From an uncultured Gammaproteobacteria bacterium (GTDB taxonomy: Bacteria; Pseudomonadota; Gammaproteobacteria; HK1), in the NCBI GenBank assembly GCA_958295465.1, contig OY282353.1, forward strand, positions 806,001 to 870,000: a stretch of DNA of 64,000 nucleotides, written 5' to 3'. Numbering within the stretch: position 1 is the stretch's first letter; every line of letters starts with the position of its first letter. Position numbers and translations under genes: made by a program. The notes under the pieces were generated by a model. That model was given only the letters and a program-made list of their open reading frames with translations, was not told the origin of the DNA and made no database searches. Shown in pieces: positions 12,794 through 41,618 of the stretch.

Positions 12794-15559
12794 ATGACCA
12801 CTGACGATCCCGCCGGACTGCGGGTCGAAGGGACTCTGCAATCGGGCGGAAGCGCGGCCGCTCAAGGGTCGAATTCCTGGCTGTTGCGCCGGAAAGTCAC
12901 CATCCCCGATCCGATTGTGAACCAGATCCATCGTGCCCGGCTCGTGGTCGCCGGCATGACCCGCACGCGAATCACGGTACTGAACGCACCCGCTGGATTC
13001 GGCAAGACGACCCTGCTTGCGGAATGCTGCCGCAGCCTCAGGGAAGACGGCGTCCGGACCGCGTGGGTTTCGCTGGACGAGTACGATGAGCCCGCGCTTC
13101 TCGACAGCTATATCGCCTTCTCGTGCCGGGCTGCCGGGCTGCACATCCCTGAGCCGCCGGCGCCGCGCGATGCCGGCGCTGCCAGCGGCGGGCCCTGGGT
13201 CGGGGTCACCCATGTGGCGCATGCGGTAGCGGAGCTGGACGGTCCCTTCGTGCTTGCGCTCGACGAGGTGGATCGGCCGGGGAACCCGGCATCGGTGGCG
13301 CTGCTGGAGTTTCTGCTGAACCGGGGACCGCCCAACCTGCACTTGGCGATGACGTGCCGCAGGCTTCCCACCGGTCTGAACGTCGGTGGAATCCTGCTGC
13401 AAGACCAGGCCCAGGCCGCGGTCGTGGGGGAAGAGGAATTGCGGTTCTCGAAGGAGGAAGTGGCAGAGGCTTTCAATCGTAACCTGACGCAGCGGGAACT
13501 GGCCGCGATCACGGCTGATTCGGCTGGATGGCCCGTTGCGGTCAGGATTTCCTGTCAAAGGAGAATGAACCCGGCGCCGGAAAACGCCCGCATGTTGCAG
13601 GTCAGTGTCGGGAACTGGATGGAGTCGCGGTTGTTCGAGGGACTCGCGGCCGACGAAAGAGATTTTCTGCTCGATATCGGGCTGTTCGACTGGATGGATG
13701 CGGAACTTCTCGACGAAGTACTGGAGCATGCCGACTCGATGCGCCGGCTCAGAATGCTTCCCGCACTGGGCGGGCTGCTGGCCAGGATTCCTGGCGAAGC
13801 AACGGACAGATGGCGGTTGCATCCGTTGATCCGGGAGCACTGCATCAAGTGTCGACAGCAGGAGAACCTGACGCGATTCAACGCCGTTCATCGACGAATT
13901 GCGCAGGCCCTCATGCGTTACGGCGAAACGGTGAGGGCGATGCGCCACGCCATGGAGGCGGGGGACGACATTCTGGCCGGCGACATCCTGGAGCACGCCG
14001 GCGGCGTCCGCATGCAGATACGGCAAGGCATCGAAGAGTTCATGGCCGCCAACCGGCTGCTCAATGAGAACATCATGTCGGAACGTCCTCGGCTGGTGCT
14101 CTCCCGATGCCTGGCCCTGGCCATGTCGGGACGTTTGGGGGAAGCCCGGGAGGGGTACGCCGCCGTGGCGGCAGCTCTCGCGACCGGTGCCGGCGAGGGG
14201 AGCGAGGACGACTTCGAGCTCTCCGTGGACGCCTGCGTCGCCCGCAGCGGCATCGCTCTGCACGGAGCCGAACGAATCGGCTCCAAGCGGGTTCAGGCGA
14301 TTCTTCCCGATCTCGCGCGGTTGGTGGAGTCGCCACGTCTTGATCCGTCGACACGCGGCAACATGCAGTACCAACTGGGCATCGAGCATCATCTGGCAGG
14401 GCAGTTCGATGCGGCGCTCCACCAACTCGCACTGGCACGGAGAAACCTTGTCGACCACCGTTACGCGAACATCTTCATCGACCTGGAAATCGGTCAGATT
14501 GCCATGGCCCAGGGTCGGGTGGCGGATGCGGAAGCACACTTCGAACAAGCATACGGGGCGGTTCGGACGAACGAACTTGGGGATGCGGTGCCATTGTTGG
14601 CCGCCAAAGTCCTGCGGCGAGAGCTTGCGCTGGAGTGCAACCGGCCCGTACCGGGCGATGTACCGGCCAGAGTGCCGAGACGGCTGCTGGCAACCCCGAC
14701 TTCGTTCTCGGTCTATGCCGCAGCGAGTGGTGCGGCCGTCGACCAGAAGCGCCGGAACGAGGGCGTCGACAGTGCGCTGGCGGCGGCCGACGAGATGCTG
14801 GACCATGTCCTCGGTGCCGGATTGCCGGCACTCGTTCGGTATCTGTCGGCGCTGCGGGCCTCCCTGCTCGCAACCGCCGCGCGAGTCGAGGATGCCGAAC
14901 GGGATTGGCGTCTGCGTGAACTGCCGGAGGATTCTCGGGGTTGTCTGGATCTGACCGGGCAGAGCTGGAGAGAGATGGAGGCGTTGTCGTGTGCGCGCCT
15001 GCGTATTCTGACCGCGCGAGAGCGCTTCGACGAAGGGCGCAGCTTCGCAGCGGACCTGTGTACCGAAGCGGCGGCGCGAGGTCTGAGGCGCACCCTGATG
15101 CGTGCGCTCTCGTTGTCGATGACGCTGGAATCCCGCGCGGGCGAGCCGGCGGCGGCGGCGGGACATATGGAAGAGTTTCTCCGTCTGTTCGGTGAAACCC
15201 CGTACGCTTGCTCACTGGTGCGGGAGCGCGAAATCGACCCGCCGGTCGTGGAGTCACTCATCGATTCGGTTCCCGATTCTCCGAGCAGGAGAACAGCGCT
15301 GTCGCTCCTGGCGTACGAGCTCGCGTCCGACGAGTTCCGGCCTCCGACGCTGAGCGAGCGCGAGCAGCAGATTCTGGAACGGCTCGAGGCCCAGCAGGAC
15401 AAACGGATCGCGATCGCGCTCGGGCTGACCGCGCACGGCGTGCGATACCATATACGGAATCTTTTCACCAAACTGGGCGTGGACAATCGGGCCGAAGCCG
15501 TGCGTCGCGCCAAGGAACTGCGCTTGATTTACGAGGACGTCCGAACCGGTGACGACTAG
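12794..15559 (+). CDS. MalT-like LuxR-family transcriptional regulator, likely RiPP cluster activator
   Basis: The gene encodes 921 residues with the STAND regulator layout. A P-loop (LNAPAGFGKTTLLAECC, near residue 62) opens the NTPase domain and FVLALDEVDRP (near 151) is its Walker B-like segment. A winged-helix part and a long helical repeat region (about 350-830) follow. The C-terminal LuxR helix-turn-helix reads LSEREQQILERLEAQ, then KRIAIALGL and VRYHIRNLFTKLGV. Such proteins bind an inducer and ATP, oligomerise and activate promoters through direct or inverted repeats. It is the first gene of the RiPP region on the strand of the first operon. The matching repeats before both precursor genes are its best candidate targets. 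Confidence 0.85.
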   Translation: MTTDDPAGLRVEGTLQSGGSAAAQGSNSWLLRRKVTIPDPIVNQIHRARLVVAGMTRTRITVLNAPAGFGKTTLLAECCRSLREDGVRTAWVSLDEYDEPALLDSYIAFSCRAAGLHIPEPPAPRDAGAASGGPWVGVTHVAHAVAELDGPFVLALDEVDRPGNPASVALLEFLLNRGPPNLHLAMTCRRLPTGLNVGGILLQDQAQAAVVGEEELRFSKEEVAEAFNRNLTQRELAAITADSAGWPVAVRISCQRRMNPAPENARMLQVSVGNWMESRLFEGLAADERDFLLDIGLFDWMDAELLDEVLEHADSMRRLRMLPALGGLLARIPGEATDRWRLHPLIREHCIKCRQQENLTRFNAVHRRIAQALMRYGETVRAMRHAMEAGDDILAGDILEHAGGVRMQIRQGIEEFMAANRLLNENIMSERPRLVLSRCLALAMSGRLGEAREGYAAVAAALATGAGEGSEDDFELSVDACVARSGIALHGAERIGSKRVQAILPDLARLVESPRLDPSTRGNMQYQLGIEHHLAGQFDAALHQLALARRNLVDHRYANIFIDLEIGQIAMAQGRVADAEAHFEQAYGAVRTNELGDAVPLLAAKVLRRELALECNRPVPGDVPARVPRRLLATPTSFSVYAAASGAAVDQKRRNEGVDSALAAADEMLDHVLGAGLPALVRYLSALRASLLATAARVEDAERDWRLRELPEDSRGCLDLTGQSWREMEALSCARLRILTARERFDEGRSFAADLCTEAAARGLRRTLMRALSLSMTLESRAGEPAAAAGHMEEFLRLFGETPYACSLVREREIDPPVVESLIDSVPDSPSRRTALSLLAYELASDEFRPPTLSEREQQILERLEAQQDKRIAIALGLTAHGVRYHIRNLFTKLGVDNRAEAVRRAKELRLIYEDVRTGDD

Positions 15560-15588
15560 GAGTCTGCGCCGCAGAAAACGATGCGACC

Positions 15589-15616
15589 GTAGGGGCGACG
15601 CATGCGTCGCCCCTAC
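15589..15616. repeat. 28-bp perfect palindrome, REP-like or terminator hairpin
   Basis: Arms GTAGGGGCGACGCA and TGCGTCGCCCCTAC form a perfect palindrome about 30 bp after the regulator stop. The GTAGGGGCGACGC core is a widespread dispersed repeat in many bacterial genomes. At this position it could end the regulator transcript. Confidence 0.6.
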
Positions 15617-15651
15617 AATCCGAATTGGAGCCCCTACAATCCGAATTGGAG
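15610..15651. repeat. two tandem 21-bp units
   Basis: The unit beginning CCCCTACAATCCGAATTGGA occurs twice head to tail (15610-15630 and 15631-15651). The first unit shares the right arm of the adjacent palindrome, so the repeat grew from the palindrome's edge. It lies 55 bp before the M16 peptidase start. Confidence 0.7.
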
Positions 15652-15706
15652 TCGTCCTTTCTTGCGATCTCGTTTCGGATGTGACCGAGCAGACCGAGGT
15701 GGTTCG

Positions 15707-18700
15707 ATGAGGATGACGCTCTGCACCGCGAATGGACTCACCCCACTCGAAGCGCCGGCGGCCGGTGCCGAGGGGACGTCCGTCGAGCATCGGAACATCG
15801 AGATCGAACGCAGCCCCGCCGATTCCCGGGACTACCGGGCCGTCATGCTGGACAACGGACTGGAGGCGCTGGTGGTCTCCGATCCGCACACCGACAAGGC
15901 GGCGGCGGCAGTCAACGTCAACGTGGGCAGCGGCGACGACCCGGACGACCGCCCGGGCCTCGCGCACTTTCTCGAACACATGCTGTTTCTCGGCACCGGG
16001 AAGTATCCGGACGCCGGCGAACATGACCGCTTTCTCGCCGAGCACGGCGGCTCCGGCAACGCCGCCACGTCGTTTGCTCACACGAGCTTTTTCTTCGACG
16101 TCGACGCCGCGCACCTCGAAGGCGCGCTCGACCGGTTCGCCCAGTTCTTCATCTCCCCGCGGTTCGACTGCGAGTACGTCGAGCGCGAGCGCCAGGTGGT
16201 GCACTCCGAGTTCATCTCGCGCCGACGCGACGACCGGCTCCGCAGCCTGGCCGCGTGGAGGCAGACCCTTGATCCCCGACATCCTCTCTCGCGGTTCCTG
16301 GCCGGCAACGCGGAGACGCTCGCGGACCGCCCGGGCGCCGACGTCCGCGACGCGCTGATCGCCTTCCACGAAAGCCGCTACTCGTCGCATCTGATGAAGC
16401 TCGTGGTGGTCGGCCGCGAGCCGCTCGACGTGCTGGACGACTGGGTGCGGGCGCGATTCGAGGCGGTACCGCGTCGCGACGTCGAGCCACTGCGCATCAC
16501 CGTGCCGCTCTACCGCGAGGGACTGCTCCCTGCGCAGCTCGACATCGAGCCGATCCGCGAGCTCCGCACCATCTCGCTCTCGTTCGCGATCCCGCCGTTG
16601 CTGCCGCACTACCCGGTGCACCCTCTCGCGCTCGTCTCGCATCTGCTCGGACACGAGGGCCCCGGCAGCCTGTTCTCGGCACTGAAGGCACGCGGCTGGG
16701 CGGAAGGATTGAACGTGGGTTTCGGCATGAGGCATCGGGACTTCGCGACGTTCGGCATCACCATCCACGCGACCGAGGCCGGACTCGCGAACCGGGTTCG
16801 CATCATCGCCTCGGTGTTCGCCTGTCTCGACCTCATCCGCGGGGACGGCATCGAGCCGCGCTACCACGACGAGCTTGCGCACATGGCGCGGATCGGCTTC
16901 CGTTTCCTGGAGAAGGCGGAGCCCTGTTCCTACGCGGTCGTTCTTGCCTCCGCCCTGCACTACCATCCGATCCGGGAGGTCCTGACCGCGCCCTCGCGGC
17001 TCGGCGACTTCGACCCCGAACTCGTGCGGCGGTGTCTCTGTGCGCTCACCCCGGACCGCGTGCTCGTGGGCGTGGTCGCGAAGGGCGTGACGACCGACTC
17101 CGGCGCGCCGTTTCATGAGACGCCGTACCGCCTGAGCCCAATCCCGATCGGAACCGTGGCGCGCTGGCGCGACCCGGCCCCGGACGGCGCCTTCCTGCTC
17201 CCGGAGCCGAATCCGTTCCTGCCCGGGCGCCTGGCGCTGATCGACGAGCCGACGGCCGGGCCGCGGCCGGCCCGAATCGCGAGCCGGCCCGGCTTCGATC
17301 TGTGGCATCGCGCCGACGTCGAGTCCGGCCGGCCGCAGACGAATTTCTACGTCGCGGTTCGCTCGCCGATCGCCGGCGACTCGCCCCGCCATACGGTGCT
17401 GAGCGCACTGCTGGTCCGGATGGTGCAGGATGCGCTCGACGAATTCGCGTATCCGGCCTTGCTCGCCGGGCAGACCTGGGCGCTGTCCCGATCCCGTCGG
17501 GGGATCACGGTGCGTCTCTCCGGTTGGAGCGACAAGCAGGATCTCCTGCTCGCGCGCATCGTGTCGACCCTGCGCGCGCTGCCGCTCCCGGCGTGGCGCT
17601 TCGAAGCGCAGAAGTCCGAGTACGCCCGCCACCTTCGCAACGCCAGCGAGCGCAAGCCCTTTCGACGTGCGATGAGCGAGGTGCGCGCGCTGCTGATCGA
17701 GCCGGACTGGTCCGACGATACCCGGCTCGAGGCGCTCGGTGCGGTGGAGCTCGAGGATCTGCGAGAGTACGCCGTCCGGTTCTTCGAGTGCGGGGAGATC
17801 GTTGCCCTCGCGCACGGAAACGTCACCGCCGAGGACGCAAAGGCGCTCGGCAGCGTGGTGGAGCACGAGTTGCTCGGCTCGATGCGAGTGGAGCGTGTGG
17901 CCGAAGCCCGAGTCGTGCGGCTCGACCCGGGGATGCGATTCACGCGGTGGCTTGCGAGCGAGCACGAAGACCATGCACTGGCCGTCTACGCTCAGGGACG
18001 CGACACCGGCCTTGCGGAGCGGGCGAAGATCGCGCTGATCGTGCGGGCGATGAGAGACAGGTTCTTCCACGAGCTGCGGGCCGAACGCAAGATCGGGTAC
18101 ATCGCCTTCACGACCTTCCTGCCGATGCTCGAGGTGCCGGGGCTCGCGCTGGTGCTCCAGTCCCCGTCGAACCCGCCCGAGACCCTCCACCGGCACGTCG
18201 ACGCCTTCATCGAGCGTTTCGGTGACGCGCTTCGCGAGATGCCGAACGCGGTCTTCGAGCGCCACCGGACCGCGGCGGAGAGCTCGTTGCTGAAGGCCGA
18301 AACCCGGCTCGGCGAGCGCACCGTACGGTACTGGAGCGAGATCGACCGGGAGAGCTATGAATTCGACCGGCGCGAGCGGTATCTCGAGGCGGTGCGTGCC
18401 GTCACCCGGGACGAGATCGCGGATGCCGCGCGAGACCTCATCGGCGCCCCGGAGACGGCTCGCGGGGTGGTCATCGCGGTCTCGAACCGCGAGCCTCCCG
18501 CCGGCGGCGAGGTGTTCCGGGGTGCGGAGTCGGTGGCCGACACGGGCGCATTCAAGCGCGGGCAGCGCTACTTCGACGATCTGCACGCGGGTCACGGCAA
18601 GACCGGTACTTCATGGGGACAGGCGGCGTTGCGCGAGAACGCGGAGAGACGAAGAGCGATTGAGCACGGCGGGGCGCATCCCGCACCCGTCGTGCCGACA

Positions 18701-18724
18701 CGAGGGGGGTACGCATGCAGTTGA
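15707..18724 (+). CDS. insulinase/pitrilysin-like M16 zinc peptidase with a sulfotransferase fragment at its C-terminus
   Basis: The gene encodes 1005 residues, the usual length of full M16A enzymes. The inverted zinc motif HFLEH is at 87-91 and the downstream Glu ligand lies in ERERQVVHSE near residue 165. Four M16 half-domains follow. M16 enzymes cut short peptides inside a closed chamber, and in RiPP clusters they trim leader or follower segments. After about residue 950 the chain departs from the family and reads LHAGHGKTGTSW, then ALRENAE. This copies the PAPS-binding start of the sulfotransferase at 27031-28050. The ATG at 15707 has GAGGTGG upstream. It overlaps the next gene by 10 bp, which indicates an operon. 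Confidence 0.85.
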   Translation: MRMTLCTANGLTPLEAPAAGAEGTSVEHRNIEIERSPADSRDYRAVMLDNGLEALVVSDPHTDKAAAAVNVNVGSGDDPDDRPGLAHFLEHMLFLGTGKYPDAGEHDRFLAEHGGSGNAATSFAHTSFFFDVDAAHLEGALDRFAQFFISPRFDCEYVERERQVVHSEFISRRRDDRLRSLAAWRQTLDPRHPLSRFLAGNAETLADRPGADVRDALIAFHESRYSSHLMKLVVVGREPLDVLDDWVRARFEAVPRRDVEPLRITVPLYREGLLPAQLDIEPIRELRTISLSFAIPPLLPHYPVHPLALVSHLLGHEGPGSLFSALKARGWAEGLNVGFGMRHRDFATFGITIHATEAGLANRVRIIASVFACLDLIRGDGIEPRYHDELAHMARIGFRFLEKAEPCSYAVVLASALHYHPIREVLTAPSRLGDFDPELVRRCLCALTPDRVLVGVVAKGVTTDSGAPFHETPYRLSPIPIGTVARWRDPAPDGAFLLPEPNPFLPGRLALIDEPTAGPRPARIASRPGFDLWHRADVESGRPQTNFYVAVRSPIAGDSPRHTVLSALLVRMVQDALDEFAYPALLAGQTWALSRSRRGITVRLSGWSDKQDLLLARIVSTLRALPLPAWRFEAQKSEYARHLRNASERKPFRRAMSEVRALLIEPDWSDDTRLEALGAVELEDLREYAVRFFECGEIVALAHGNVTAEDAKALGSVVEHELLGSMRVERVAEARVVRLDPGMRFTRWLASEHEDHALAVYAQGRDTGLAERAKIALIVRAMRDRFFHELRAERKIGYIAFTTFLPMLEVPGLALVLQSPSNPPETLHRHVDAFIERFGDALREMPNAVFERHRTAAESSLLKAETRLGERTVRYWSEIDRESYEFDRRERYLEAVRAVTRDEIADAARDLIGAPETARGVVIAVSNREPPAGGEVFRGAESVADTGAFKRGQRYFDDLHAGHGKTGTSWGQAALRENAERRRAIEHGGAHPAPVVPTRGGYACS

Positions 18725-21603: not shown

Positions 21604-21606
21604 ACA

Positions 21607-21707
21607 TGTAGTCACCGGGAATTGTGTTTGCAGTTCGGGAGAATTTCGGAAACTACATGAATTGGGAGCACGGCTTCGTTGACCGTTGGTCGTCAATGAG
21701 GCTATAC
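21607..21707 (+). promoter_or_regulatory. precursor promoter 1 with spaced repeats
   Basis: TGTAGT (21607) and TGCAGTT (21629) form direct repeats 22 bp apart. The second pairs with AACTACA (21651-21657) as an inverted repeat. A -35 box TTGACC (21679-21684) and a -10 box CTATAC (21702-21707) follow with a 17-bp spacer. The same elements with identical spacing precede the second precursor gene. This is the layout of a class I activator site and fits the MalT-like regulator at 12794. Confidence 0.65.
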
Positions 21708-21771
21708 GACTCATGCAGGATGTGTATCAGTCAGTCATCCAAGTTCGACTCGAAAACGGGAGGCTAGTGAC

Positions 21772-22134
21772 ATGAGCGTGGAGAATCTCAAGGAATATGC
21801 GCGTCGTTGCGCGGTCGATCCGGAGCTGCGCACGGCAGCGAAGGATATCGGGATGGAAAATATGGACGGACACATGCGTCAAGCCGAGAGCATCGGCCTG
21901 GCCTGGGACAGGAGTGATTTGGTGGAGTTCCAGAAGGAAATGACCGGCACCGAAGGAGGCCTCGCGGACCTCAGCGAAGAAGAACTGGATCAGGTTGCCG
22001 GCGGCGGGGTCACCACCACCGCCGCGGTCGCGGTGGGAGTCGGGGTGGGAGTTGCGGCAGGAGCAGCGGTGGGAGGCGTGGTGGGAGGCGTGGTGGGAGG
22101 TGGAGCCGCAGTAGCAGGGAGAGGTGGCTGGTAA
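21772..22134 (+). CDS. Nif11-type RiPP precursor peptide 1
   Basis: The gene encodes 120 residues. Residues 1-78 are a Nif11-type leader (MSVENLKEYARRCAVDPEL) that ends with LSEEELDQVAGG, the double-Gly cleavage signal read by C39 peptidases. The 42-residue core (79-120) starts GVTTTAAVAVGVGVGV and has Val/Ala/Gly throughout, including GGVVGGVVGGG. It has no Cys, Ser, Lys or acidic residue and ends AGRGGW. The alternating hydrophobic pattern recalls polytheonamide-type cores that become D/L-alternating helices. GGGAGG precedes the ATG by 8 nt. The epimerase gene follows 62 bp downstream, so this peptide is the likely first substrate. Confidence 0.9.
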   Translation: MSVENLKEYARRCAVDPELRTAAKDIGMENMDGHMRQAESIGLAWDRSDLVEFQKEMTGTEGGLADLSEEELDQVAGGGVTTTAAVAVGVGVGVAAGAAVGGVVGGVVGGGAAVAGRGGW

Positions 22135-22196
22135 CACCTCGATTGGCAACACCTCGATGATGTATCAGCCATAGTGTCCAACGGGAGTCGTGCGAA

Positions 22197-24002: not shown

Positions 24003-24038
24003 GGCGGCGGCGGGGAAGGGGGGTGATGGCGGTGGCAG

Positions 24039-26194: not shown

Positions 26195-26236
26195 CGATCA
26201 GGGGACGGCTTGGCATCTTGCCGGGGTAATGGTGAA

Positions 26237-27028: not shown

Positions 27029-27030
27029 AG

Positions 27031-28050: not shown

Positions 28051-28093
28051 GGCGGCCGAGCCATCGGTGGCGGAGCTGCGGTGCGGATTGGCA

Positions 28094-30868: not shown

Positions 30869-30979
30869 CTATCGCCACGATCTGCTATTGAGAAGGATGC
30901 GCTGACTCCAGCCCGCATTGCTCACCAGCCCCCGGCTGCGGACGCGGATCCGGCGGGGGGCAGCTTCGTTCATGGGTGC

Positions 30980-31010
30980 ATTATAGTCCACGTCGATGCG
31001 ATATGAACAA
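30980..31010 (-). promoter_or_regulatory. possible promoter of the flavoprotein-sulfotransferase operon
   Basis: On the minus strand a TATAAT box (30985-30980) follows TTGTTC (31010-31005) with a 19-bp spacer, or TGTTCA with 18 bp. It lies 112 bp before the flavoprotein start and inside the remnant-bearing divergent region. Spacing is slightly long. Confidence 0.4.
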
Positions 31011-31044
31011 ACGCCGGAAACGTCCGACCGAGCTTCCCATACTG

Positions 31045-31173
31045 CATAGCAATCACGCCGGTCCTCCCGGTCCGCCCCCGCTGGACGGGCTGCCGGAGGG
31101 GTGGCTGGCGCGTGCGGCGGCCGGGATCCGCGGTTCGATCCGTGCCCGCGCACCGGAACGTCGCGGGCGGTGA
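31045..31173 (+). pseudogene. C-terminal remnant of a sulfotransferase domain
   Basis: Forty-odd codons read HSNHAGPPGPPPLDGLPEGW then LAR. This duplicates the end of the fused methyltransferase-sulfotransferase (HSNAGPPGPSPLDGLPEGW). Both copies stop with TGA followed by ACATG, and here that ATG is the start of tfuA. The remnant indicates that a sulfotransferase gene once preceded tfuA. Confidence 0.7.
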
Positions 31174-31175
31174 AC

Positions 31176-32504
31176 ATGGAGCGGACGGCTGGCCGCAAGC
31201 TCGTGTTTCTGGGCCCGTCGCTGGGGCTTGCAGAGGCACGCGGTCTCTGCCCTGACGCCGAATTCCTCCCTCCGATCCGCTTCGGCGATCTCTACGCCCT
31301 GAGCTGCGAACCACCGGGGCAGGTGCTGATCGTCGACGGGGTGTTCCATGACTCCACGCCGGTGTGGCAGCGCGAGATCCTTCAATTGCTCCAGACGGGC
31401 TGGCGGGTGCTGGGCGCTTCGTCCATGGGTGCATTGCGGGCGCTGGAGCTGGAGCCATACGGCATGATCGGGCTGGGCAGCGTCTTCGAGTGGTATCGGG
31501 CCGGCCGGATCGAGGGTGATGACGAGGTTGCCCTGTTGCATGGCACTGCCGATATGGACTACCTGCCGCTGACCCTGCCGTTGGTCGACGTGCGCCATGC
31601 TCTGGGCGGGCTCGAGACGCAGGGCGCGCTGGCTCCGACCCAGGTGTCCGGCATTCTCCGCGCGTTCAAACGCATGGGACACGAGGTGCGCACGCTCCGC
31701 GCGCTGCTGGCGCTGGTGCGGACCGAGGGCGCGGACGTCGCCGCAGTGCGGGATCGGCTCTCGGACAGGGCGCACAGTCTCAAGGCGCAGGATACACGCT
31801 TGGCGCTACGGGTTCTGGCAGGCCGGCTTCCGCTGCCCGCCGCCGGGGTGCGTTGGCCCGATCCGATTCCGCCCCCGGTAGAGCCCGAAGCCTTGTTCCA
31901 GCGCCGGATCTACCCGCTGGCCGGTCCGCCGCTTGAGATATCCGACGTACTGCGCACGATGGCGCAGCAGCCTGAACCGTGGCTCCGGCCCCAACGCGAA
32001 GGCAGTCGCCGCTGGTTCCTGTGCGATTGGGTTCGCGTCTCCGGACAGGGGCCGGACGCCGGCGAACGGCGCGCCTTCGCCCTGCGGCACGCAACCGGGC
32101 TGGCCCGGGCACTGGATGTCTCGCTCGCGCGATGGTGCGCCGCGTCGGCGGTGCGCGACGACGAGCTTGCGGAGTGGATGGCGGGTCTCGCCGTCGAGCA
32201 TTGGCTGACCGGGCAAACCGCGCGGGTGCTCGGGATCGCCCATCCACTGCAAGGGGACGAGCCGTCGCTGATCCCGTTGGTGCTGGTGGACTGGATGCGC
32301 CGTCATGGGGTCGAGGCGCCGCCCGAGCACCGCGCCAGCACCGGCCACATGGCCTCATGGCTGGTGGGGATGGGACCCGCGTTCTTCGGTGCGCCGGACT
32401 ACTTTCCCGACATCGCGTTGATCCGGACCGTGGCGGCAAATGGGCGCCTGGCGCGTTGGGGCCGGATCGCGCAGGCCCGAGCCCCATTGGACAAGACACC
32501 ATGA
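31176..32504 (+). CDS. TfuA-domain protein, YcaO partner
   Basis: The gene encodes 442 residues. The TfuA domain fills the first half: KLVFLGPSLGLAEARGL, FLPPIRFGDLYAL, IVDGVFHDSTPVWQREIL and GASSMGALRALELEPYGM. The second half (about 230-442) is helical and less conserved. TfuA partners of YcaO proteins stimulate backbone thioamidation, as in methyl-coenzyme M reductase and thiovarsolin-type RiPPs, or heterocyclisation. The ATG at 31176 is the second base group after the remnant's stop, and a clear Shine-Dalgarno is lacking. The stop overlaps the YcaO start (ATGA), so the two are co-translated. Confidence 0.85.
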   Translation: MERTAGRKLVFLGPSLGLAEARGLCPDAEFLPPIRFGDLYALSCEPPGQVLIVDGVFHDSTPVWQREILQLLQTGWRVLGASSMGALRALELEPYGMIGLGSVFEWYRAGRIEGDDEVALLHGTADMDYLPLTLPLVDVRHALGGLETQGALAPTQVSGILRAFKRMGHEVRTLRALLALVRTEGADVAAVRDRLSDRAHSLKAQDTRLALRVLAGRLPLPAAGVRWPDPIPPPVEPEALFQRRIYPLAGPPLEISDVLRTMAQQPEPWLRPQREGSRRWFLCDWVRVSGQGPDAGERRAFALRHATGLARALDVSLARWCAASAVRDDELAEWMAGLAVEHWLTGQTARVLGIAHPLQGDEPSLIPLVLVDWMRRHGVEAPPEHRASTGHMASWLVGMGPAFFGAPDYFPDIALIRTVAANGRLARWGRIAQARAPLDKTP

Positions 32505-33706
32505 ATGACGGCGCCATGAATGACGCTGCCTTTGCCGATGCGCTGGCGCACGAGGCGGCCAGGTTCCCGTTGCTGCGCGCCTGCCCCCCGGAACAGACTC
32601 TGGCCACCGTCGCACCCGCGCTGCCAGCCTGCGGAATCACGCGGGTGGCCTCGGTCACCCATCTCGACACGCTTGGTATCCCGACCTGGGTATCGGTGCG
32701 GCCCGGGGGGCAGGTGTTGCAGATCAGCAATGGCAAGGGGGTCACGAATGCCGCGGCGCAAGCCTCGGCGACGATGGAGGCCTGCGAGCTGTATCTGGCC
32801 GAGAACCCCGACCCCGCGCGGCTATGGCACGGCAGCATGGCCGGGCTCGCGAAGGCCGAGCCCGATGCGCGGATCGTTCCACCGGCGGAGCTTCCCGGCA
32901 GCCTCGAGTGCTACTTCACGCCCGACTTCATCGGCGAATGGACCTCCGGCACGGATATGGACACGGGCGACCGGGTGTGGGTCCCGTCGAGTGCGGTGTA
33001 TTTCTATCGCCGTCCGCTGTTGTTCGAAACCAGCTCCAACGGGCTGGCCTCGGGGAACACGCGGGCCGAGGCGCGGTTGCACGCCATGTACGAGTTGATC
33101 GAGCGCGACGCCATGTGCGCGGTGAGCGAGGGGGGACGGCTGAGGCTGCGCGACCGCGGGCAGAGGATCGACCCCGACAGCGTGACGTTTCCACTCGCTC
33201 GACTGATCCTCGACCGCTGGACGGCGGAGGGCGCTTCGGTGCTGCTGGTGGCGTTGCCGGCGGCGGTAGCCGTGTCCGTGATATGGGCGCTGTTTCTGGG
33301 CGAGCGATCGTTGTCGACAAGAACCCTCATGAATGGGGGGTTCGGCGCCCACGTCAATCCGGAAGTAGCGATTACGCGCGCGCTGACCGAAGCGGCGCAA
33401 GCGCGGCTCGCCAAGATCCACGGCGCTCGCGACGACCTTCGGCTCAAGCTGGGGGGGACCAGGGACGGCCGGCCCTATCGCGTGCTGAAGAGCCTCACCC
33501 CCGATACGAGTTGGAAGCAGATAGAGGAGCAGCCACGCCTCGACCTGCCGGATGCGCCCGAGGCCGTGGTGCCGCGGCTGGTGGATGCATTGATCCGCCG
33601 AGGCAGGGGTCCGGTGTACGGCTTTGATCTGAGCGACCCCGGGAAGCCTCTGTACTGTGCGCGCGTCATTGCCCCGCGCCTGGAATTCCGGAAGCAGTTG
33701 TTCTGA
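32501..33706 (+). CDS. YcaO-domain RiPP enzyme, copy 1
   Basis: The gene encodes 401 residues. ATP-binding YcaO blocks are present: SNGKGVTNAAAQASATMEAC (about 76-95), NGLASGNTRAEARLHAMYEL with IERDA (about 180-205) and the NPEVAITRALTEAAQARL helix near 300. YcaO enzymes phosphorylate a backbone amide O and then install azolines, amidines or, with TfuA and a sulfide source, thioamides. The chain ends RLEFRKQLF and lacks the PxPxP tail seen in azoline-forming cyclodehydratases. Neither precursor core contains Cys or Ser, and Gly is abundant, so thioamidation is the more likely chemistry. The start overlaps tfuA by 4 bp. Confidence 0.85.
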   Translation: MNDGAMNDAAFADALAHEAARFPLLRACPPEQTLATVAPALPACGITRVASVTHLDTLGIPTWVSVRPGGQVLQISNGKGVTNAAAQASATMEACELYLAENPDPARLWHGSMAGLAKAEPDARIVPPAELPGSLECYFTPDFIGEWTSGTDMDTGDRVWVPSSAVYFYRRPLLFETSSNGLASGNTRAEARLHAMYELIERDAMCAVSEGGRLRLRDRGQRIDPDSVTFPLARLILDRWTAEGASVLLVALPAAVAVSVIWALFLGERSLSTRTLMNGGFGAHVNPEVAITRALTEAAQARLAKIHGARDDLRLKLGGTRDGRPYRVLKSLTPDTSWKQIEEQPRLDLPDAPEAVVPRLVDALIRRGRGPVYGFDLSDPGKPLYCARVIAPRLEFRKQLF

Positions 33707-33796
33707 CCGGTCCCGGGCCCGGACGGCGCCGGCAAATGAGCGCTTGGCGCGTTGGGGCCGGATCGCGCAGGCCCGAGCCCCATTGGACAATGCGCC

Positions 33797-34987: not shown

Positions 34988-35107
34988 CCGGTCCCGGGCC
35001 CGGACGGCCCCGGTCGATTCCCGCGCGCGGGAACGGTGTCGATACCGCCGGCGGAACATCGGGGCGCGGCGCCGGCCGAATCGGACGCCTCGCCGACGGC
35101 CCCGGAC

Positions 35108-38068
35108 TCAGATGATCTGCCGTCTGGCCATCTCCGCCAGTACGCCGCCCTGCGCCATCAGATCCTCATATCGACCGGTCTCGACGATTCTGCCGTCCTG
35201 CATCACGTAGAGGCGGTCCACGTCGACCACCGTGCTGAGGCGGTGGGCGATCAGCACCCGGGTGGAGGCCAAGCCGCGCAGGGAGGTTCGGATCGTGTCC
35301 TGGGTGCGGTTGTCGAGCATGCTGGTCGCCTCGTCGAAGAGCAGGACACGCGGCTTGCGGGCCAGGGTGCGGGCAATCAGAAGACGCTGCCTCTGACCGC
35401 CGGACAGACCGACTCCGCCCTCCGGAATCTCCGTGTGCATCCCCATCGGCATATTCGAGATGTCCTGAGCGAGGCCGGCCGCGCGCGCCGCGTCCCAGGC
35501 CTCCTTCTCGGTGAGCGACGCTTCGCCGACGATGTTCATGAAGATGCTGGCCGGGGTAAGCTGTCCATTCTGCAGCACCACGCCGAACTGGCGGCGCATC
35601 GCGTCGAGATTGAGCGACAGCAGGTCGTGTCCGTCGAGCAGCACGGTTCCGGCAGTCGGTCTCTCGAAGCCGAGCAGCAGCCGATACACCGTCGACTTGC
35701 CGGCTCCGGACGGACCCACGAAGGCCACGTACTCCCCCGGACGAATGTGGAAGGACACGTTCTGGAGCGTGTCGCGCTCCGCCGAGGGATAGCGGAAGGT
35801 CACATGCTCGAATTCGATCCGCCCTGAGAGGCTCCGCAGCACCGTACCGCCGCTGACGCTCTCGGGCTGCGCCTCGATGATCGGCAGGACGCGTTCGAAC
35901 AGGGGCAGCACGGCGAGTGCCGTCGCCCAGGTAGCGGTCAACCCGACCATGCCCCCCATGAACTGCCCGAAGGCGGCATGGAACGAGAGGAAATCGGCCA
36001 GTGCGAACGGGGTCACCGCCTCGCCTTCCTTGTCTTCGGCCATCGCGGCCCCGCCTTCGAGCACCGAGTACCAGATCAACGCCAGCAACGCGAGCTGGGA
36101 GAGCGGCCCGAACAGCGCGTTGAAGGTGTGTTGGCCGGCTGCCCACTTGCGCGCGGACAGATTCGCGCGCTTCTGTTCGGTGTACAGCTTCGACCAGCGC
36201 AAGAGGGCGCTGCGCTCGGCGTGAGCCTGCCTGAGCTTGGCCACCCCGATGATCATCTGAAAGACCATCCCGTCGATCGCCCCCTGCGCCTTGAAGACGG
36301 CCCGTTGATGGTGGACCTGGCGCGTGGTGAACCACCAGCTCCCGGCGACCAGCAACAGCACCGCGACCCCTGTCCACAGCGCGAGCTCCCAACTGTAGTA
36401 GAACAGCAACGCATAGCTGAAGATCGAGAACGCGCCACTCACCAGGCTGGCGCCGGTCGCCCCGGTCAGTATCTGACGGATGACGCTCACGCCGTTCGCC
36501 CGATCCGCCAGATCGCCGGCGAGATAGCGCCGGAAGAAGGGCGGCGGCAACGAGAGAAGCTTGCTCCACACCGCGGCCTGGAGGGTCTCGTCGATCCGGG
36601 CCTCGATCCGCAGCATACTGAATGCGCCGACGACCGAGAGGGCGGCGGTCGTGAACGCACCAAGCGCCAGCGCCACCAGCGCGGCGGTCCACATCGGAAC
36701 GTCCACCCTGGGGATGATCTCGGCCAGCAACTCTCCGGTCACGACCGGGGTCAGCAGAGCGACGAGGGCGCCCAGGGCCCCCATGAGGGCCACGCCCGCG
36801 ATGTCCCGGCCCCGGCCGCGCAGGGCCTGGAGAAGTGCCGCCAGGCCACTGTCCACGCTGCGGGCAAGCGGCGGGTAGAACGTCACACCCTGCGTGTCGA
36901 GCGATTCGGCCCGCTGCCGGTTCACCGGGGCCGCCTCGCCGGAGACGGGGTCGATCATCCTGTAGGCGCCGCGACCGCTGTTGACGACCGCCACCGGCCG
37001 CGGCTCCTCCGGGGAAGCGACCCCCAGGAAGGACGGTCCGTCCCGCCGCTCCCATCCGGGGGACAACTGGATCCGGCGAGTGCGGATGTCCGAGGGCGCC
37101 ACGACCGCGTCCACCGCCTCGAGCGGGTCGACGTCGGCGTCGACAACGGCAGGCGAATCGTCGAGCTGCACGCCGGCCGAGTCGGCGACGATGGCGGCGG
37201 CCGCCTGCAACGGGCTCCGGTGTCCGTGCGCCGTCTCGCTGCCCGGGGAGGTATCGACCAGGAGGCTGGTCAGCTCCCCGAGCATCGCCTCCTGAAGTCG
37301 GACGCCTTGACGCCGGTTCCGGGAGAGCTGGCTCAGGTTCCGCTCGCGCATCTGCACCCAATAGCGCGCGGCGCATCGCAGGATCTGGACGTTGTATCGA
37401 TCCAGCGCGCCCCACAGCCGCCCGGTGATGATGGCGCCCGGCGTGTGGACCGCCGAGACCTGCGTCTTCTCGGGGAGGGTGAGCCAGATGTGCTCGGCCA
37501 GCGGGAAGAGGCCCTCCTTGTCCACCGGAAACCCGGGGGGGCCGACCAGCAGTCCCGGTTGGTCGATCGAGATCCACAAGACTTCGCGATGATGCGCGCT
37601 CACCACCGAACGCGCCTCATAGGGGACGTCCGGATCAGCCTCGAGGAGAAGCACTTCGCGCGGCCGCTGATGCTCGTATCTGGCTACGAACTCGGAGGCG
37701 GCCACCACCCAGTCGTCGATCACGGAGACGGCGTCCAGGTCGAAGGTTTCGCGCGAGGCGAGGTGCTCGCGCTTGCCCCGGAGCAGGGTCGTCCCGCGCG
37801 AGGGCACGGCATGGTAGGTGAAGAATGTGCCACCACTCTTGCTCGGCACGATCAGCGAGCCGAAAAACGCACCCCCGACAGGGATGCGGGTGATGAACGG
37901 AGCACGAGTCAGTGCGGATTGCGCATCGTCCACCACCACCGCGAACAGGTCGACGTAGCCGCTCTCGACGATGTAGAACTCCTCATGCTGATCCAGGAGG
38001 AAGGCGTCATGCGCACCCACCTCGGCACGCGACATGGGGATGCGACGGGTCAGGTCCTGCCATGCCAT
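35108..38068 (-). CDS. NHLM-type ABC transporter, ATP-binding/permease without peptidase
   Basis: The gene encodes 986 residues. An N-terminal regulatory domain (about 1-150, beginning MAWQDLTRRIPMSRAEVGAH) resembles the cyclic-nucleotide-binding-like part of the NHLM system's second ABC protein. Transmembrane helices occupy about 430-690. The nucleotide-binding domain has GPSGAGKST, LSGGQRQRLLIARTL and VLLFDEATSMLD. It would form a heteromeric exporter with the C39 protein upstream. The start at 38068 is set by the 5-bp gap to the previous stop and homology; the longer frame back to 38488 overlaps that gene fully. Confidence 0.9.
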   Translation of the reverse strand: MAWQDLTRRIPMSRAEVGAHDAFLLDQHEEFYIVESGYVDLFAVVVDDAQSALTRAPFITRIPVGGAFFGSLIVPSKSGGTFFTYHAVPSRGTTLLRGKREHLASRETFDLDAVSVIDDWVVAASEFVARYEHQRPREVLLLEADPDVPYEARSVVSAHHREVLWISIDQPGLLVGPPGFPVDKEGLFPLAEHIWLTLPEKTQVSAVHTPGAIITGRLWGALDRYNVQILRCAARYWVQMRERNLSQLSRNRRQGVRLQEAMLGELTSLLVDTSPGSETAHGHRSPLQAAAAIVADSAGVQLDDSPAVVDADVDPLEAVDAVVAPSDIRTRRIQLSPGWERRDGPSFLGVASPEEPRPVAVVNSGRGAYRMIDPVSGEAAPVNRQRAESLDTQGVTFYPPLARSVDSGLAALLQALRGRGRDIAGVALMGALGALVALLTPVVTGELLAEIIPRVDVPMWTAALVALALGAFTTAALSVVGAFSMLRIEARIDETLQAAVWSKLLSLPPPFFRRYLAGDLADRANGVSVIRQILTGATGASLVSGAFSIFSYALLFYYSWELALWTGVAVLLLVAGSWWFTTRQVHHQRAVFKAQGAIDGMVFQMIIGVAKLRQAHAERSALLRWSKLYTEQKRANLSARKWAAGQHTFNALFGPLSQLALLALIWYSVLEGGAAMAEDKEGEAVTPFALADFLSFHAAFGQFMGGMVGLTATWATALAVLPLFERVLPIIEAQPESVSGGTVLRSLSGRIEFEHVTFRYPSAERDTLQNVSFHIRPGEYVAFVGPSGAGKSTVYRLLLGFERPTAGTVLLDGHDLLSLNLDAMRRQFGVVLQNGQLTPASIFMNIVGEASLTEKEAWDAARAAGLAQDISNMPMGMHTEIPEGGVGLSGGQRQRLLIARTLARKPRVLLFDEATSMLDNRTQDTIRTSLRGLASTRVLIAHRLSTVVDVDRLYVMQDGRIVETGRYEDLMAQGGVLAEMARRQII

Positions 38069-38073
38069 GGCCC

Positions 38074-40317
38074 CTACTCCGACCTGAGCAGCGCGGAGTA
38101 GGCACCCCCGCGCGCCAACAGGTCCTCGTGGGTTCCCCTCTCGACGATACGACCGTGATCGAGGACGACGATCTCGTCTGCGTCGCGGACCGTGGTCAGA
38201 CGGTGGGCGATGATCAGGCAGGCCACGCCGCGCCGGCGCAAATTGTTGTCGATCAGGACCTCGGTGATCGGATCGAGCGCCGCCGTCGCCTCGTCGAGCA
38301 CCAGTATGTCCGGGTTGGCGACGAGCGCGCGGGCCAGCTCCAGAAGCTGGCGCTGTCCGCCGCTGAAGTTGCAGCCGCCTTCGCCCACCGGCGTGTCGTA
38401 CATGCCGGGCCGGGACATCACCTCCTCGAGGATCGCCGCATCGCGTAGCGCCTGCGTCACCGTCAGCTCGTCGATCTGCGAATTCCACAGCGTGACGTTG
38501 TCGCGCACGGTCCCGTCGAACAGCACGACGTCCTGGTTGACATAGGAGATCATCGAGCCAAGATGGTCGGGGGATACGCTGTTGACGTCCACATCGGCGA
38601 TCTGCACCGATCCGGACCGCGGGGTCACCAGGCGGCAGGCCAGCTTGCCGATGGTCGTCTTGCCGCTGCCGGAGCCGCCCACCAGCGCCACCCTGCGCCC
38701 GGGGAGCACCTCCAGGCTGAAGTCCTCGACCACGGGCGGGGCCATGGCGCTGTAGCCGAAGGTCACGTTCTCCAGGCGCAGGCTCCTCTTGATCTCCGAC
38801 ACCTTGGTCACCGCCGCGTTCTCGTCGATTTCGAAGGTATGCTCGTCCTGCTCGTGATTCAAAACGTCGTCGAGGCGGCTGATGTCACCCGTGATCGTCT
38901 GGAGGCTGGCGCTGAACTGCGTGAGCTGCTCAATCGGAGTCGAGAAGCTGCGCGCCAGCGACTGGAAGGCCATCAGCCCACCGATGGTCAGCACCCCCTC
39001 CAGCACCCGATAGCCCCCGAAGCCCAGGATGGCGACGGTGGACAGCGACGAGAGCAGCGGCGGCACCACGTTCAGCAGGCTGGTGCGCACACCGAGCGAC
39101 TGCTGAGCCTGAAGCGCATTCGTGTGCTGGCCGGACCACCGCGCGAAGAACGTGTTCTCCGAGCCGTCCGCCTTCAGAGTTTCGATCATGGCCAGACCGT
39201 TGACCGACGTGGCGGCCACCTTGGCCTGCTCCTTGAGCAGGCGGCGGCTGTCGTCCTCACGCGTCCGCGCGACCGCCCGCAACGCCACCACGTTGAACGA
39301 GACCATCGCGAACACCGCAACCGCCAGGGCCGGATCGTAGGAGAACATGACCCCGCCATAGGCGACCATGGTGAGCAGGTTGACCGTGCCGATCGCCAGC
39401 TCGCTCGAGATCATCTGCGCAACCTTGTCGTTCGACATCACCCGGGCGGCGACGTCCCCGGCGTAACGCTGGTGGAAGAAAGTCATCGGCAGGGTGAAAA
39501 GGTGCAGGAAGAATCGCGTGGTGGCGACGACGGCGAGCTTGGTCTCCATGCGCGCCAGGCACAGGTGCTGGAGCCAGGTGAGCACCGCCTGCAGGCACGC
39601 GGTGAGCCCTATGCCGATCATCAGCGGAATCATCAGCGCGTCGCTGCGCGGGATCAGCACATCGTCCACGAAGACCTTGAGAAGCGTTGGCAGGGCGATG
39701 CCGGGAATGATCAGCGCCAGCGTCGCCAATATGACGAAGAGAAGCGGCGTGCGCGCGTAGCCCAGCCGGGAGAACAGACCACGCAGCACGCTCGGCTTGC
39801 TGCCGCCCTTGAGAAACTCGGGGCCGGGCTGAAGGAGGAGACAGACGTCGGAGTAGTCGGTCTCGAACTCGTCCCTGGTGAGCGTACGCGGCCCTTGGGC
39901 CGGGTCGTTGATGTAGACACGGTTGCCACGGAATCCCTCGAGCACTACGAAGTGGCTGAAACTCCAGAACACGATCATCGGGAAGGGGAACTCGGGGAGG
40001 CGCCTGAATTTGGCCCGCGCGCCCCGGGTGACCATGCCCAGCGCCTTCGCCGCCCGTATGATGTTGAGCGCCTTGGTGCCGTCGCGCGATACGCCGCAGC
40101 GCACCCGCAGCTCCTCGAGCGGTATCCACCTGCCGTAATGGGCGAGGACCATTGCCAGACAGGCAGCGCCGCACTCGGTCCTCTCCATTTGCAGCACGGT
40201 GGGCACCGCCCGGCGGCCTCCGCGCCGGGGATGCAGATTGGGCTTCAACGTCTCTGCGCGGGGCGGCGTCGCGCCGCCCCCTTCCCGTGGATCTTTGCTG
40301 CCGTGGACCGGACTCAT
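38074..40317 (-). CDS. NHLM-type ABC transporter with C39 leader peptidase
   Basis: The gene encodes 747 residues. The C39 peptidase domain holds the catalytic Cys49 (MERTECGAACLAM), His122 (SHFVVLEGF) and Asp138 (INDPAQG) triad. It cuts after the leader's Gly-Gly. Six transmembrane helices follow and then an ATPase with GGSGSGKTT, FSGGQRQLLELARAL and ILVLDEATAALD. The Gly-Gly sites in both Nif11 leaders match its expected substrate. The ATG at 40317 overlaps the HlyD stop (ATGA), which marks it as the second gene of a three-gene export operon. Confidence 0.92.
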   Translation of the reverse strand: MSPVHGSKDPREGGGATPPRAETLKPNLHPRRGGRRAVPTVLQMERTECGAACLAMVLAHYGRWIPLEELRVRCGVSRDGTKALNIIRAAKALGMVTRGARAKFRRLPEFPFPMIVFWSFSHFVVLEGFRGNRVYINDPAQGPRTLTRDEFETDYSDVCLLLQPGPEFLKGGSKPSVLRGLFSRLGYARTPLLFVILATLALIIPGIALPTLLKVFVDDVLIPRSDALMIPLMIGIGLTACLQAVLTWLQHLCLARMETKLAVVATTRFFLHLFTLPMTFFHQRYAGDVAARVMSNDKVAQMISSELAIGTVNLLTMVAYGGVMFSYDPALAVAVFAMVSFNVVALRAVARTREDDSRRLLKEQAKVAATSVNGLAMIETLKADGSENTFFARWSGQHTNALQAQQSLGVRTSLLNVVPPLLSSLSTVAILGFGGYRVLEGVLTIGGLMAFQSLARSFSTPIEQLTQFSASLQTITGDISRLDDVLNHEQDEHTFEIDENAAVTKVSEIKRSLRLENVTFGYSAMAPPVVEDFSLEVLPGRRVALVGGSGSGKTTIGKLACRLVTPRSGSVQIADVDVNSVSPDHLGSMISYVNQDVVLFDGTVRDNVTLWNSQIDELTVTQALRDAAILEEVMSRPGMYDTPVGEGGCNFSGGQRQLLELARALVANPDILVLDEATAALDPITEVLIDNNLRRRGVACLIIAHRLTTVRDADEIVVLDHGRIVERGTHEDLLARGGAYSALLRSE

Positions 40318-41618
40318 CGCACCCCCAGCCACTCCTTGAGCGCCGGGATGGCCAGCGTGATCGGGGCTTGGCTCCGGGTCTTGATCTCGACCGAGGCGAG
40401 CGTGCCGGGAGCCAGCGTCTGACTCGCTGCCTTGGGCGAGGTCCAGGCAAGGCCACTCGCGGTCGTCGGGTCGGGGATCAGAGCAATCCGCCCGGCATAG
40501 GGCGGGCCGTCACTGAAGAAGCTTTGGGCCAGCTCCCGGTTCTGGAGCACCGCGACCATGCCTTCGAAGCTCACCGGAAAGGACGAGAGGGACTCGACCC
40601 TCCCCCTGATCGCCCCGAACTCCTCGCGCCTCACCGCGGCGGGCGACACCAGCGCCGGCATTCCCGCCTCGACCTGCTTGCCTTCGGCGGGTGAGACGTA
40701 GAGCAGCAACTCGAGCTCCGTGGTTCCGGTACGGATACTGACCACGGCCGTGCCTGAATTCACTATCGCACTGCTCGCAGCCTTGATCTCGATCACCTGG
40801 CCCGAGACCGGCGCCAGGACCCTCTCCGCCGCTACGAGGACTTCAAGCTCCCTCGCCTGATGCTTCGCGGACTCCACTCGGGCCGTCATCTCCCGGATGC
40901 GAGTGGCGTTTTCGTTCCTGTACCTGATCTCGTTCGCTTCCAGGGTGTCTCGTTCCCGACCCAGGTCGAGCAGGCCCCGGCGCGCCTCGTTGAGCTCCCG
41001 CTGGGTGCTCTCCAGGCTCAGGCGGGAGACGATACGCTGCTCGAAGAGCTGCTTGCTGTTCTCGAGATTGGCTCGGGCGATGTCCAGCATATCCAGTGCG
41101 GTGGCCTCGAGCTCGTCGAGCTGCTTGCGGCGCCGGGTGTTGTTCTCGCTCGCGATCCTGGACTCCGCCGTGACATCCGCCTTCAGGGCGTCGAGCGCTC
41201 GGGCGCGCTCCACGACGGACGCAAGGGCGCTGGTGTAACGCGCTGAGAGCTCCTCGTTGGCGACGAGCGCGACGAGGGCGTCCTTCTCGACCTCGTCGCC
41301 GACGGAGACGGCGATCGTGTGCAGCCGGCCGGAACCGGTCGCGACCGCGTCCACCACCCTGCCGCCCCGATTCAACAGAAATCCATTGGCCTCCACATAG
41401 GTCGCGATCTCCCCGACGACGGACCACACGCCGACCGCCACCGCAACCACGAGGATCGAGAGCAAGGCAATCCATCCCCTCGCCCGGGTCACGGACAGCA
41501 TCCGGTCGAGCCGTTCCGGCGTCGTCTGCTGAGCGGACGACCGCTTGAATTTCGTCTTCCCGCTACCGGGCATCCGCAGAGGCTCGTCGGCGCGGGATTT
41601 GGACCAGGGCAACCGCAT
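40314..41618 (-). CDS. NHLM-type HlyD secretion protein
   Basis: The gene encodes 434 residues. One transmembrane helix (WIALLSILVVAVAVGVWSVV, about 49-68) is followed by a lipoyl-like hairpin (SGRLHTIAVSVGDEVEKDALVA) and a long coiled coil (about 130-270). The barrel then resumes at LAPVSGQVIEI. It links the ABC pair to an outer-membrane channel or the cell surface. No outer-membrane TolC-like gene is in the window. It is the first gene of the export operon. Its upstream region contains an IS remnant, so the native promoter may have been disturbed. Confidence 0.9.
   Translation of the reverse strand: MRLPWSKSRADEPLRMPGSGKTKFKRSSAQQTTPERLDRMLSVTRARGWIALLSILVVAVAVGVWSVVGEIATYVEANGFLLNRGGRVVDAVATGSGRLHTIAVSVGDEVEKDALVALVANEELSARYTSALASVVERARALDALKADVTAESRIASENNTRRRKQLDELEATALDMLDIARANLENSKQLFEQRIVSRLSLESTQRELNEARRGLLDLGRERDTLEANEIRYRNENATRIREMTARVESAKHQARELEVLVAAERVLAPVSGQVIEIKAASSAIVNSGTAVVSIRTGTTELELLLYVSPAEGKQVEAGMPALVSPAAVRREEFGAIRGRVESLSSFPVSFEGMVAVLQNRELAQSFFSDGPPYAGRIALIPDPTTASGLAWTSPKAASQTLAPGTLASVEIKTRSQAPITLAIPALKEWLGVR

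Follow-up and report, generated by a model that had tools for sequence, protein, structure and literature searches.

What does a 29-kb block of peptide-tailoring genes make, and what is the part played in it by a 400-residue protein, U400, whose family has gone without annotation? The block lies in a 64,000-nucleotide stretch of an uncultured gammaproteobacterium (positions 806001-870000 of a single-contig genome of 5.68 Mb, here G000); this stretch is the window below, and positions are numbered within it. An initial annotation read the block as a pathway for a ribosomally synthesised and post-translationally modified peptide (RiPP), with a regulator, two precursors, tailoring enzymes, two peptidases and an NHLM exporter, and we find that the frames are open and that the Pfam and NCBIfam families agree (Table 1). 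It counted U400 among the cluster's proteins but gave it no name, and missed the predicted prenyltransferase and the conserved C-terminal tryptophan. With moderate confidence, we propose that two precursors with Nif11 leaders give rise to a lipopeptide containing D-residues, whose terminal tryptophan is prenylated by U400, a predicted enzyme of the alpha-beta-beta-alpha (ABBA) type. A vaguely defined hybrid cluster thereby becomes a specific prediction, a prenyl-tryptophan ending an epimerised hydrophobic peptide.

Precursors with a conserved C-terminal tryptophan

Both precursors contain VAGGG with its Gly-Gly cleavage site, preceded in the leaders by LSEEEL and LTEDEL, and the Nif11 leader model TIGR03798 scores precursor 2 above its cut-off and precursor 1 below it (Table 1). 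The nitrile-hydratase-like leader family of proteusins is absent from the library matches of both, and they do not classify as proteusins. The two cores, like those of their counterparts in another genome from the same genus (G002, contig OY282378.1), finish AGRGGW. A profile built from these four precursors matched 159 relatives, 120 of them among the matches listed, and tails were counted in the 118 of these with a recognised leader boundary. Tryptophan is the last residue in 115 of the 118, and in P0201 and P0204, where the boundary was not recognised, it is again terminal (117 of 120 in total). Of the three departures, P0226 has a terminal leucine, and the tails of P0151 and P0218 look like products of a frame break. 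The end is GGW in 94 of the 118, and none of the 115 Trp-ended cores has a second tryptophan.

Alanine, glycine and valine make up 79% of the residues in these 115 cores (median length 42), threonine occupies position 5 in 101 and threonine or serine position 3 in 97. Other aromatic residues and histidine are scarce (tyrosine in one core, phenylalanine in 23, histidine in six), asparagine is 0.2% of core residues, and arginine and cysteine occur in just 15 and nine cores, respectively. The hallmarks of the family, all directly visible in the sequences, are thus a start rich in Thr, a middle of small residues and an end in Gly-Gly-Trp. These features fit a prenyltransferase and a flavoprotein that both act on tryptophan, and a TfuA/YcaO pair of the glycine type. 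The earlier suggestion of a polytheonamide-like hydrophobic peptide with a modified tail, the modification being predicted, is supported.

U400, a predicted prenyltransferase, and its proposed target

The AlphaFold model of U400 (predicted local distance difference test score, pLDDT, 91.4; predicted template modelling score 0.90) is an alpha-beta-beta-alpha barrel, the ABBA or PT-barrel fold, and the best-ranked folds in Foldseek and VIA comparisons are indole/Trp prenyltransferases. ABBA barrels bind the diphosphate through Arg, Lys and Tyr ligands and have a catalytic Glu. In a 23-row alignment of the family R234 is present in 21 rows, and K362, K374 and Y376 in 20 each; three of the rows, L044a, L046a and L050, appear to be misframed. 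By eye the first strand holds a G-x-E, which is absent from the columns kept in 80% of rows. From the model, U400 is predicted to represent an ABBA-type prenyltransferase family that is not named in the libraries searched and is probably new.

An unexpected feature is that the C-terminus of U400 (24039-24110) carries a copy of the GGW with which its presumed substrate ends. We counted tails in 65 proteins with intact ends, drawn from 70 homologues (P0039-P0108) plus the window protein; left out were P0038, which is nearly identical to the window protein, and six of these 71 that lack a C-terminal KxY motif. Tryptophan is among the last five residues in 57 tails, is second-last in 52, and occurs as GGW in 40. 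In the window protein residues 390-399 have a pLDDT below 50. We infer that this tail may fill the enzyme's own barrel as a pseudo-substrate, or may anchor U400 to the leader, much as near-end residues of the ABBA-type enzyme MppC would. MppC Trp336 and Phe340 have been modelled into a Nif11 leader, and mutants indicate that Phe340 is important and Trp336 matters little (PMC12715784; papers are cited here and below from partial texts).

Linkage of enzyme and precursor was scored as contigs of identical size in bases, leaving out contigs of 3 kb or less, and 29 of 65 distinct lengths of precursor-bearing contigs equal that of a contig with a U400 homologue. P0065 and P0089 both have a longest contig of 5,783,922 bases; this single length with two U400 homologues perhaps means two such pathways in one genome. 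Distant U400 homologues (about 22-28% identity) are present at other loci of G000 and of related genomes, and a pattern scan of 21 such loci (L044-L060 and L071-L074) yielded 21 precursor-like frames in 11 of them, with a Trp end in 11 frames and a Trp within the core in 17. A U400 homologue and a YcaO match share a stretch in L049, L050, L053 and L054; in L044, L046, L047, L048, L051, L052 and L056 the stretch examined has the homologue and no YcaO match. Tryptophan thus recurs alongside U400 even where YcaO is not matched (L044, L046-L048 and L056). One of these regions, L044 and L045 (G000, C1:2925000-2960000), is a second RiPP region, in which two distant U400 paralogues accompany five precursor frames of a proteusin-like kind; three of these frames are Trp-ended.

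Several observations weigh against the proposal as a whole. The Foldseek TM-scores of U400 are modest, 0.49-0.52 for the top five matches and lower after, and its identity to the 21 best structures is 9-15%. At the sequence level no match to any prenyltransferase was found in Pfam, NCBIfam or a PDB profile search: no prenyltransferase model is among the matches up to E 10, either in Pfam for 59 family members or in NCBIfam for the window protein; the family profile (alignment A1, from 58 of the 71 homologues listed) matched no PDB sequence. Pfam Trp_DMAT matched neither G000 nor any of 14 controls, and is hence uninformative. The phosphate ligands are candidates placed by sequence alignment. 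For the linkage, 36 of the 65 lengths of precursor-bearing contigs have no U400 partner, and the count is weakened because each protein cluster is represented by its longest contig alone and a large contig can carry more than one gene cluster. Four of the 21 precursor-like frames, of CCC type (L050, L054, L071 and L072), lack any aromatic core residue, and tryptophan therefore cannot be the target there. The PoyD-type enzyme (289 bits, cut-off 325), TfuA and YcaO all score below their equivalog or subfamily cut-offs. The ratio of non-synonymous to synonymous changes (dN/dS) between G000 and G002 shows no purifying selection on U400 (0.98, 15 changes), the second sulfotransferase-like protein ST2 (1.56) or precursor 1 (1.08); it is 0.17-1.00 for the remaining genes (M16 left out), and the comparison is uninformative.

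The CCC-type loci, which keep a distant U400 where the core has no tryptophan, bring in a rival reading: U400 may be an ABBA prenyltransferase that lipidates some other residue or molecule, leaving the terminal Trp for the halogenase or as a recognition tail. There is precedent in the srp cluster, where SrpI brominates the C-terminal Trp of SrpE, whose core is LCCCW (PMC10858898), and the halogenase domain encoded here retains WxWxIP and the lysine. However, indole/Trp prenyltransferases rank best among the fold matches, and Trp is the only aromatic residue kept in nearly all cores; we consider this alternative unlikely.

The proposal supplies the unannotated U400 family, with 71 homologues among the matches listed, with a likely function and a testable substrate, and ties it to a precursor family of 159 matches with one conserved Trp.

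Other genes of the cluster and their history

The 16 genes of the block are open reading frames at the claimed positions. The initial gene list holds, with corrections to the start of precursor 2 (26838), to both YcaO frames and to the start of the second exporter subunit (38068 instead of 38488). Third-position G+C content is gene-like, about 0.75-0.88, in the large frames checked (both YcaO frames excluded), and less clear in the short precursors (0.67 and 0.63). The M23 stop and the U400 start overlap by four bases. The exporter is complete, with the C39-bearing subunit, the second ABC subunit and the HlyD-type adaptor each above its NCBIfam equivalog cut-off. The sequence supports a hybrid RiPP cluster with an epimerase, TfuA/YcaO, sulfotransferase-like domains, a halogenase-like flavoprotein and an exporter.

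Table 1. Features of the RiPP cluster in the window.
Feature	Position	Strand	Evidence
LuxR-type regulator, STAND/AAA ATPase, 921 aa	12794..15559	+	Pfam GerE 4e-11, AAA_16 1.5e-6
M16 (pitrilysin-like) peptidase, HFLEH zinc motif; sulfotransferase N-terminus remnant near C-terminus	15602..18724	+	Peptidase_M16 domains; HxxEH at residue 122
PRMT-like methyltransferase, TPR-like helical domain and sulfotransferase-fold domain, 962 aa	18715..21603	+	
Precursor 1: Nif11 leader, 42-residue core with AGRGGW end	21772..22134	+	leader_Nif11 28.6 bits (cut-off 32.3); precursor alignment
PoyD-type radical SAM epimerase, 601 aa	22197..24002	+	TIGR04517 E 6.3e-86; CxxxCxxC at residue 218
U400: predicted ABBA-barrel (indole/Trp-type) prenyltransferase, C-terminal EGGWR tail, 400 aa	24039..25241	-	structure model; Foldseek and VIA matches; tail count
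M23 metallopeptidase, 318 aa, N-terminal half hydrophobic by eye	25238..26194	-	Peptidase_M23 6.8e-10; HLHIH motif
Precursor 2: Nif11 leader, core with AGRGGW end, 119 aa	26479..26838	-	leader_Nif11 36.3 bits (cut-off 32.3); precursor alignment
ST2: sulfotransferase-like by motif only, 339 aa	27031..28050	-	HNKTGTSW
Flavoprotein fusion: FAD_binding_4 domain and CndH/CmlS-type halogenase domain, 924 aa	28094..30868	-	FAD_binding_4 1.1e-11; CndH 3e1t E 3.7e-90; WxWxIP, KxGxxFxWG
Remnant, C-terminus of PRMT-sulfotransferase gene	31055..31181	+	76% DNA match to 21485-21611; protein match
TfuA-like protein, 442 aa	31176..32504	+	TfuA 7.9e-38; NF033432 147 bits (cut-off 235)
YcaO copy 1	32501..33706	+	YcaO 1.4e-60; TIGR03266 E 1.7e-54, under cut-off
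YcaO copy 2, tandem duplicate, 90.7% protein identity	33797..34987	+	YcaO 9.8e-62; 94.6% DNA over 1310 bases
NHLM exporter ABC subunit 2	35108..38068	-	TIGR03797 762 bits (cut-off 709)
NHLM exporter ABC subunit 1 with C39 leader peptidase	38074..40332	-	TIGR03796 934 bits (cut-off 853); Peptidase_C39 1.6e-37
NHLM HlyD-type adaptor	40314..41618	-	TIGR03794 236 bits (cut-off 156)

The tailoring steps are predicted from folds and families. While U400 would prenylate the C-terminal Trp, the PoyD-type enzyme, which matches TIGR04517 over profile positions 2-446 of 446 and retains CSVQCYFC, would epimerise core residues, perhaps to give a polytheonamide-like D/L helix. TfuA adjoins YcaO, as in TfuA-YcaO thioamidation, and the best NCBIfam models (NF033432, and the McrA-glycine type TIGR03266) place the pair closest to McrA-glycine thioamidation, albeit below cut-off. 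Cysteine is present in only nine of 115 cores, so the pair may introduce thioamides into the backbone, perhaps at the glycines conserved in the tail; for the same reason azole formation was set aside as the chief role of YcaO, although threonine is present. The M16 and M23 peptidases retain HxxEH and HLHIH; cleavage behind the leader Gly-Gly would fall to the C39 domain, and export of the product to the NHLM system. The order of the steps and the prenyl length we can only infer.

The second half of the flavoprotein aligns to CndH and CmlS and keeps WVWFIP and KPGGTFYWG, including the active-site lysine, and this CndH-type domain is predicted to halogenate or hydroxylate the same C-terminal Trp. 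A PAPS (3'-phosphoadenosine 5'-phosphosulfate)-dependent sulfotransferase fold was recovered; the model of the TPR-sulfotransferase region had no Foldseek match at E ≤ 0.001, and a second aligner showed both domains. ST2 matches no model of Pfam or NCBIfam up to E 10. Sulfotransferases require an acceptor such as a hydroxyl, which these domains could find on a conserved Thr of the core or on a Trp after its oxidation. The latter would follow if the flavoprotein were a hydroxylase like QhpG, a Trp-modifying monooxygenase, giving a prenylated sulfo-oxy-Trp head group. This variant is compatible with prenylation by U400, and both NCBIfam models match below cut-off (QhpG E 2.1e-42, CmlS 6.5e-65); we think it improbable, given the retained halogenase signature and CndH as the best structure match.

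The N-terminal domain of the 962-residue fusion is homologous to the protein arginine methyltransferase (PRMT) PRMT6 (E 1.5e-32). RGG is a PRMT target motif and all four G000 and G002 cores end AGRGGW. In line with the PRMT-like methylation of the initial annotation, one could envisage an epimerised polytheonamide-like peptide methylated at this arginine and not lipidated, with U400 a YcaO partner or a protein of some other kind; the four loci that pair a U400 homologue with YcaO would agree. The hallmarks of type I PRMTs are the double-E loop, the THW loop and a YFxxY helix. In the window protein SECLGLAGLGGAM replaces SEWMGYGLLHESM and TVW replaces THW; every PRMT-bearing row aligned has lost THW as well as the second (clamp) Glu in the double-E loop, and YFxxY was not seen in those rows with the N-terminus present. 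Arginine occurs in few cores of the family and in none of 13 linked cores on eight other PRMT-bearing contigs outside the genus, and seven loci have U400 homologues with no YcaO match. Arginine methylation of the RGG tail is therefore rejected as the main idea and is not supported as a general step, and the combined alternative appears quite unlikely, while the window's own RGGW tails may still be methylated. The PRMT-fold domain would methylate a target that in most relatives cannot be a core arginine, a caution that a PRMT fold in a RiPP cluster need not mean arginine methylation. PRMT-like genes with 29-34% identity to the N-terminus of the fusion are also found in other genomes of the family (L057, with two copies, L058 and L059), near ABC exporters in L057 and L059.

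G002 has the same 16 genes in the same order with 95-99% protein identity; precursor 1 is 92% identical over residues 1-74 and 89% overall. Fifteen are open over their full length (PoyD 611 residues compared with 601), M16 is matched over residues 18-1040, and the flavoprotein fusion is kept as one gene. Self-comparison of the window shows that 21603-22134 matches 27032-26479, and that 18581-18645, which now lies towards the M16 gene's end, pairs with 28032-27968 in inverted orientation (83% over 65 bases), a remnant of a sulfotransferase N-terminus corresponding to the start of ST2. These matches suggest that a precursor and sulfotransferase were once duplicated in inverted orientation, in an old event. 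The 31055-31181 remnant, just 5' of TfuA, is also in G002 and is therefore older than the split of the two genomes, with the genes open since; copying and swapping of tailoring modules have apparently taken place within the cluster. That the cluster is decaying or inactive, as these two sulfotransferase gene fragments, the recent tandem YcaO duplication and the dN/dS of several genes might imply, is very improbable, because all 16 genes are open in the window and matched over almost their full length in G002, and stayed open after the 31055-31181 remnant arose.

No further cluster with its context was found: a scan of genome contigs matched only OY282378.1, viral contigs gave no match, and the precursor profile matched two of 55 genomes, G000 and G002. 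When 369 genomes of the class, 398 of the phylum and 29 relatives were scanned with the U400 profile, close homologues turned up only in G000 and G002, and the matches elsewhere were distant; a further class-level scan returned the same two distant genomes. Outside the cluster, an Rfam PYLIS_3 match (41.9 bits, 44925-45024) lies inside an MttB-family gene (43758-45434, + strand), probably a non-pyrrolysine homologue because the frame has no internal stop.

Comparison with known systems

A close parallel is the mpp cluster of Moorena producens, which has a Nif11 leader and the ABBA-type MppC and geranylates Trp (PMC12715784); the name MppI is given to a leader-dependent brominase of a lanthipeptide, another case of Trp bromination (PMC12615548). 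Both systems have a leader with L(X)4L before a Gly-Gly site and an ABBA-type prenyltransferase, here predicted, acting on Trp. In contrast, the mpp cores are short lanthionine macrocycles, whereas those described here are long, linear and rich in Ala, Gly and Val and are accompanied by an epimerase and TfuA/YcaO. No lanthionine synthetase domain was found among the cluster proteins scanned.

The poy and aer pathways have proteusin leaders, Asn side-chain methylation and radical methylases. They share with this cluster a PoyD-type epimerase and a long hydrophobic core, but here the leader is Nif11, asparagine is almost absent and there is a Trp tail with predicted prenylation. Their products, polytheonamide and aeronamide, are epimerised proteusins (PMC11285071). 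The srp clusters of sponge microbiomes (SrpE, SrpC and SrpI) have YcaO and a brominated C-terminal Trp, and differ in their proteusin leaders and CCC cores that yield thiazolines; the halogenase here is CndH/CmlS-like; PoyD and TfuA are unnamed in the available part of that account (PMC10858898). The L053 locus (10550-12030, 1625-2917) is srp-like, with an LCCCW-ended precursor, a YcaO match, a distant U400 homologue and an NHLM exporter, and it also encodes a protein resembling a tryptophan halogenase by eye. By analogy with such clusters in related genomes, the host may come from a sponge.

TfuA with YcaO is shared with thioamidated RiPPs; TfuA clusters include Nif11 precursors, one cluster (Figure 4 of the source) has an indole prenyltransferase, and the products known in 2021 come from Actinobacteria. 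The accessible text does not mention an epimerase, such as is predicted here (PMC8120280). RiPP clusters of sponge symbionts list Nif11, YcaO, PoyD, TfuA and halogenases, with no prenyltransferase, GGW precursor family or combined pathway in the text at hand (PMC9426513), and that of PMC12858407 has nothing relevant to these pieces. In searches of an open-access library we recognised no paper that describes the whole set. Its pieces are known from mpp, srp and TfuA clusters with Nif11 precursors, precedents that the initial annotation missed.

The pathway is of a known general kind, with a probably new prenyltransferase family. If the proposal is right, epimerisation, backbone thioamidation and Trp lipidation would be united in one ribosomal peptide, hinting at a means of anchoring channel-like peptides and adding another Trp prenyltransferase for Nif11-leader peptides. 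More tentatively, the product may open a new class among ribosomal lipopeptides. It would be a D/L helix built of small residues that spans the membrane and is capped by a Trp, linked through thioglycine, that is prenylated and either halogenated or sulfated. Its maker would be a new family of ABBA prenyltransferases with a copy of the substrate's Gly-Gly-Trp as C-terminal tail, serving as built-in pseudo-substrate or leader anchor.

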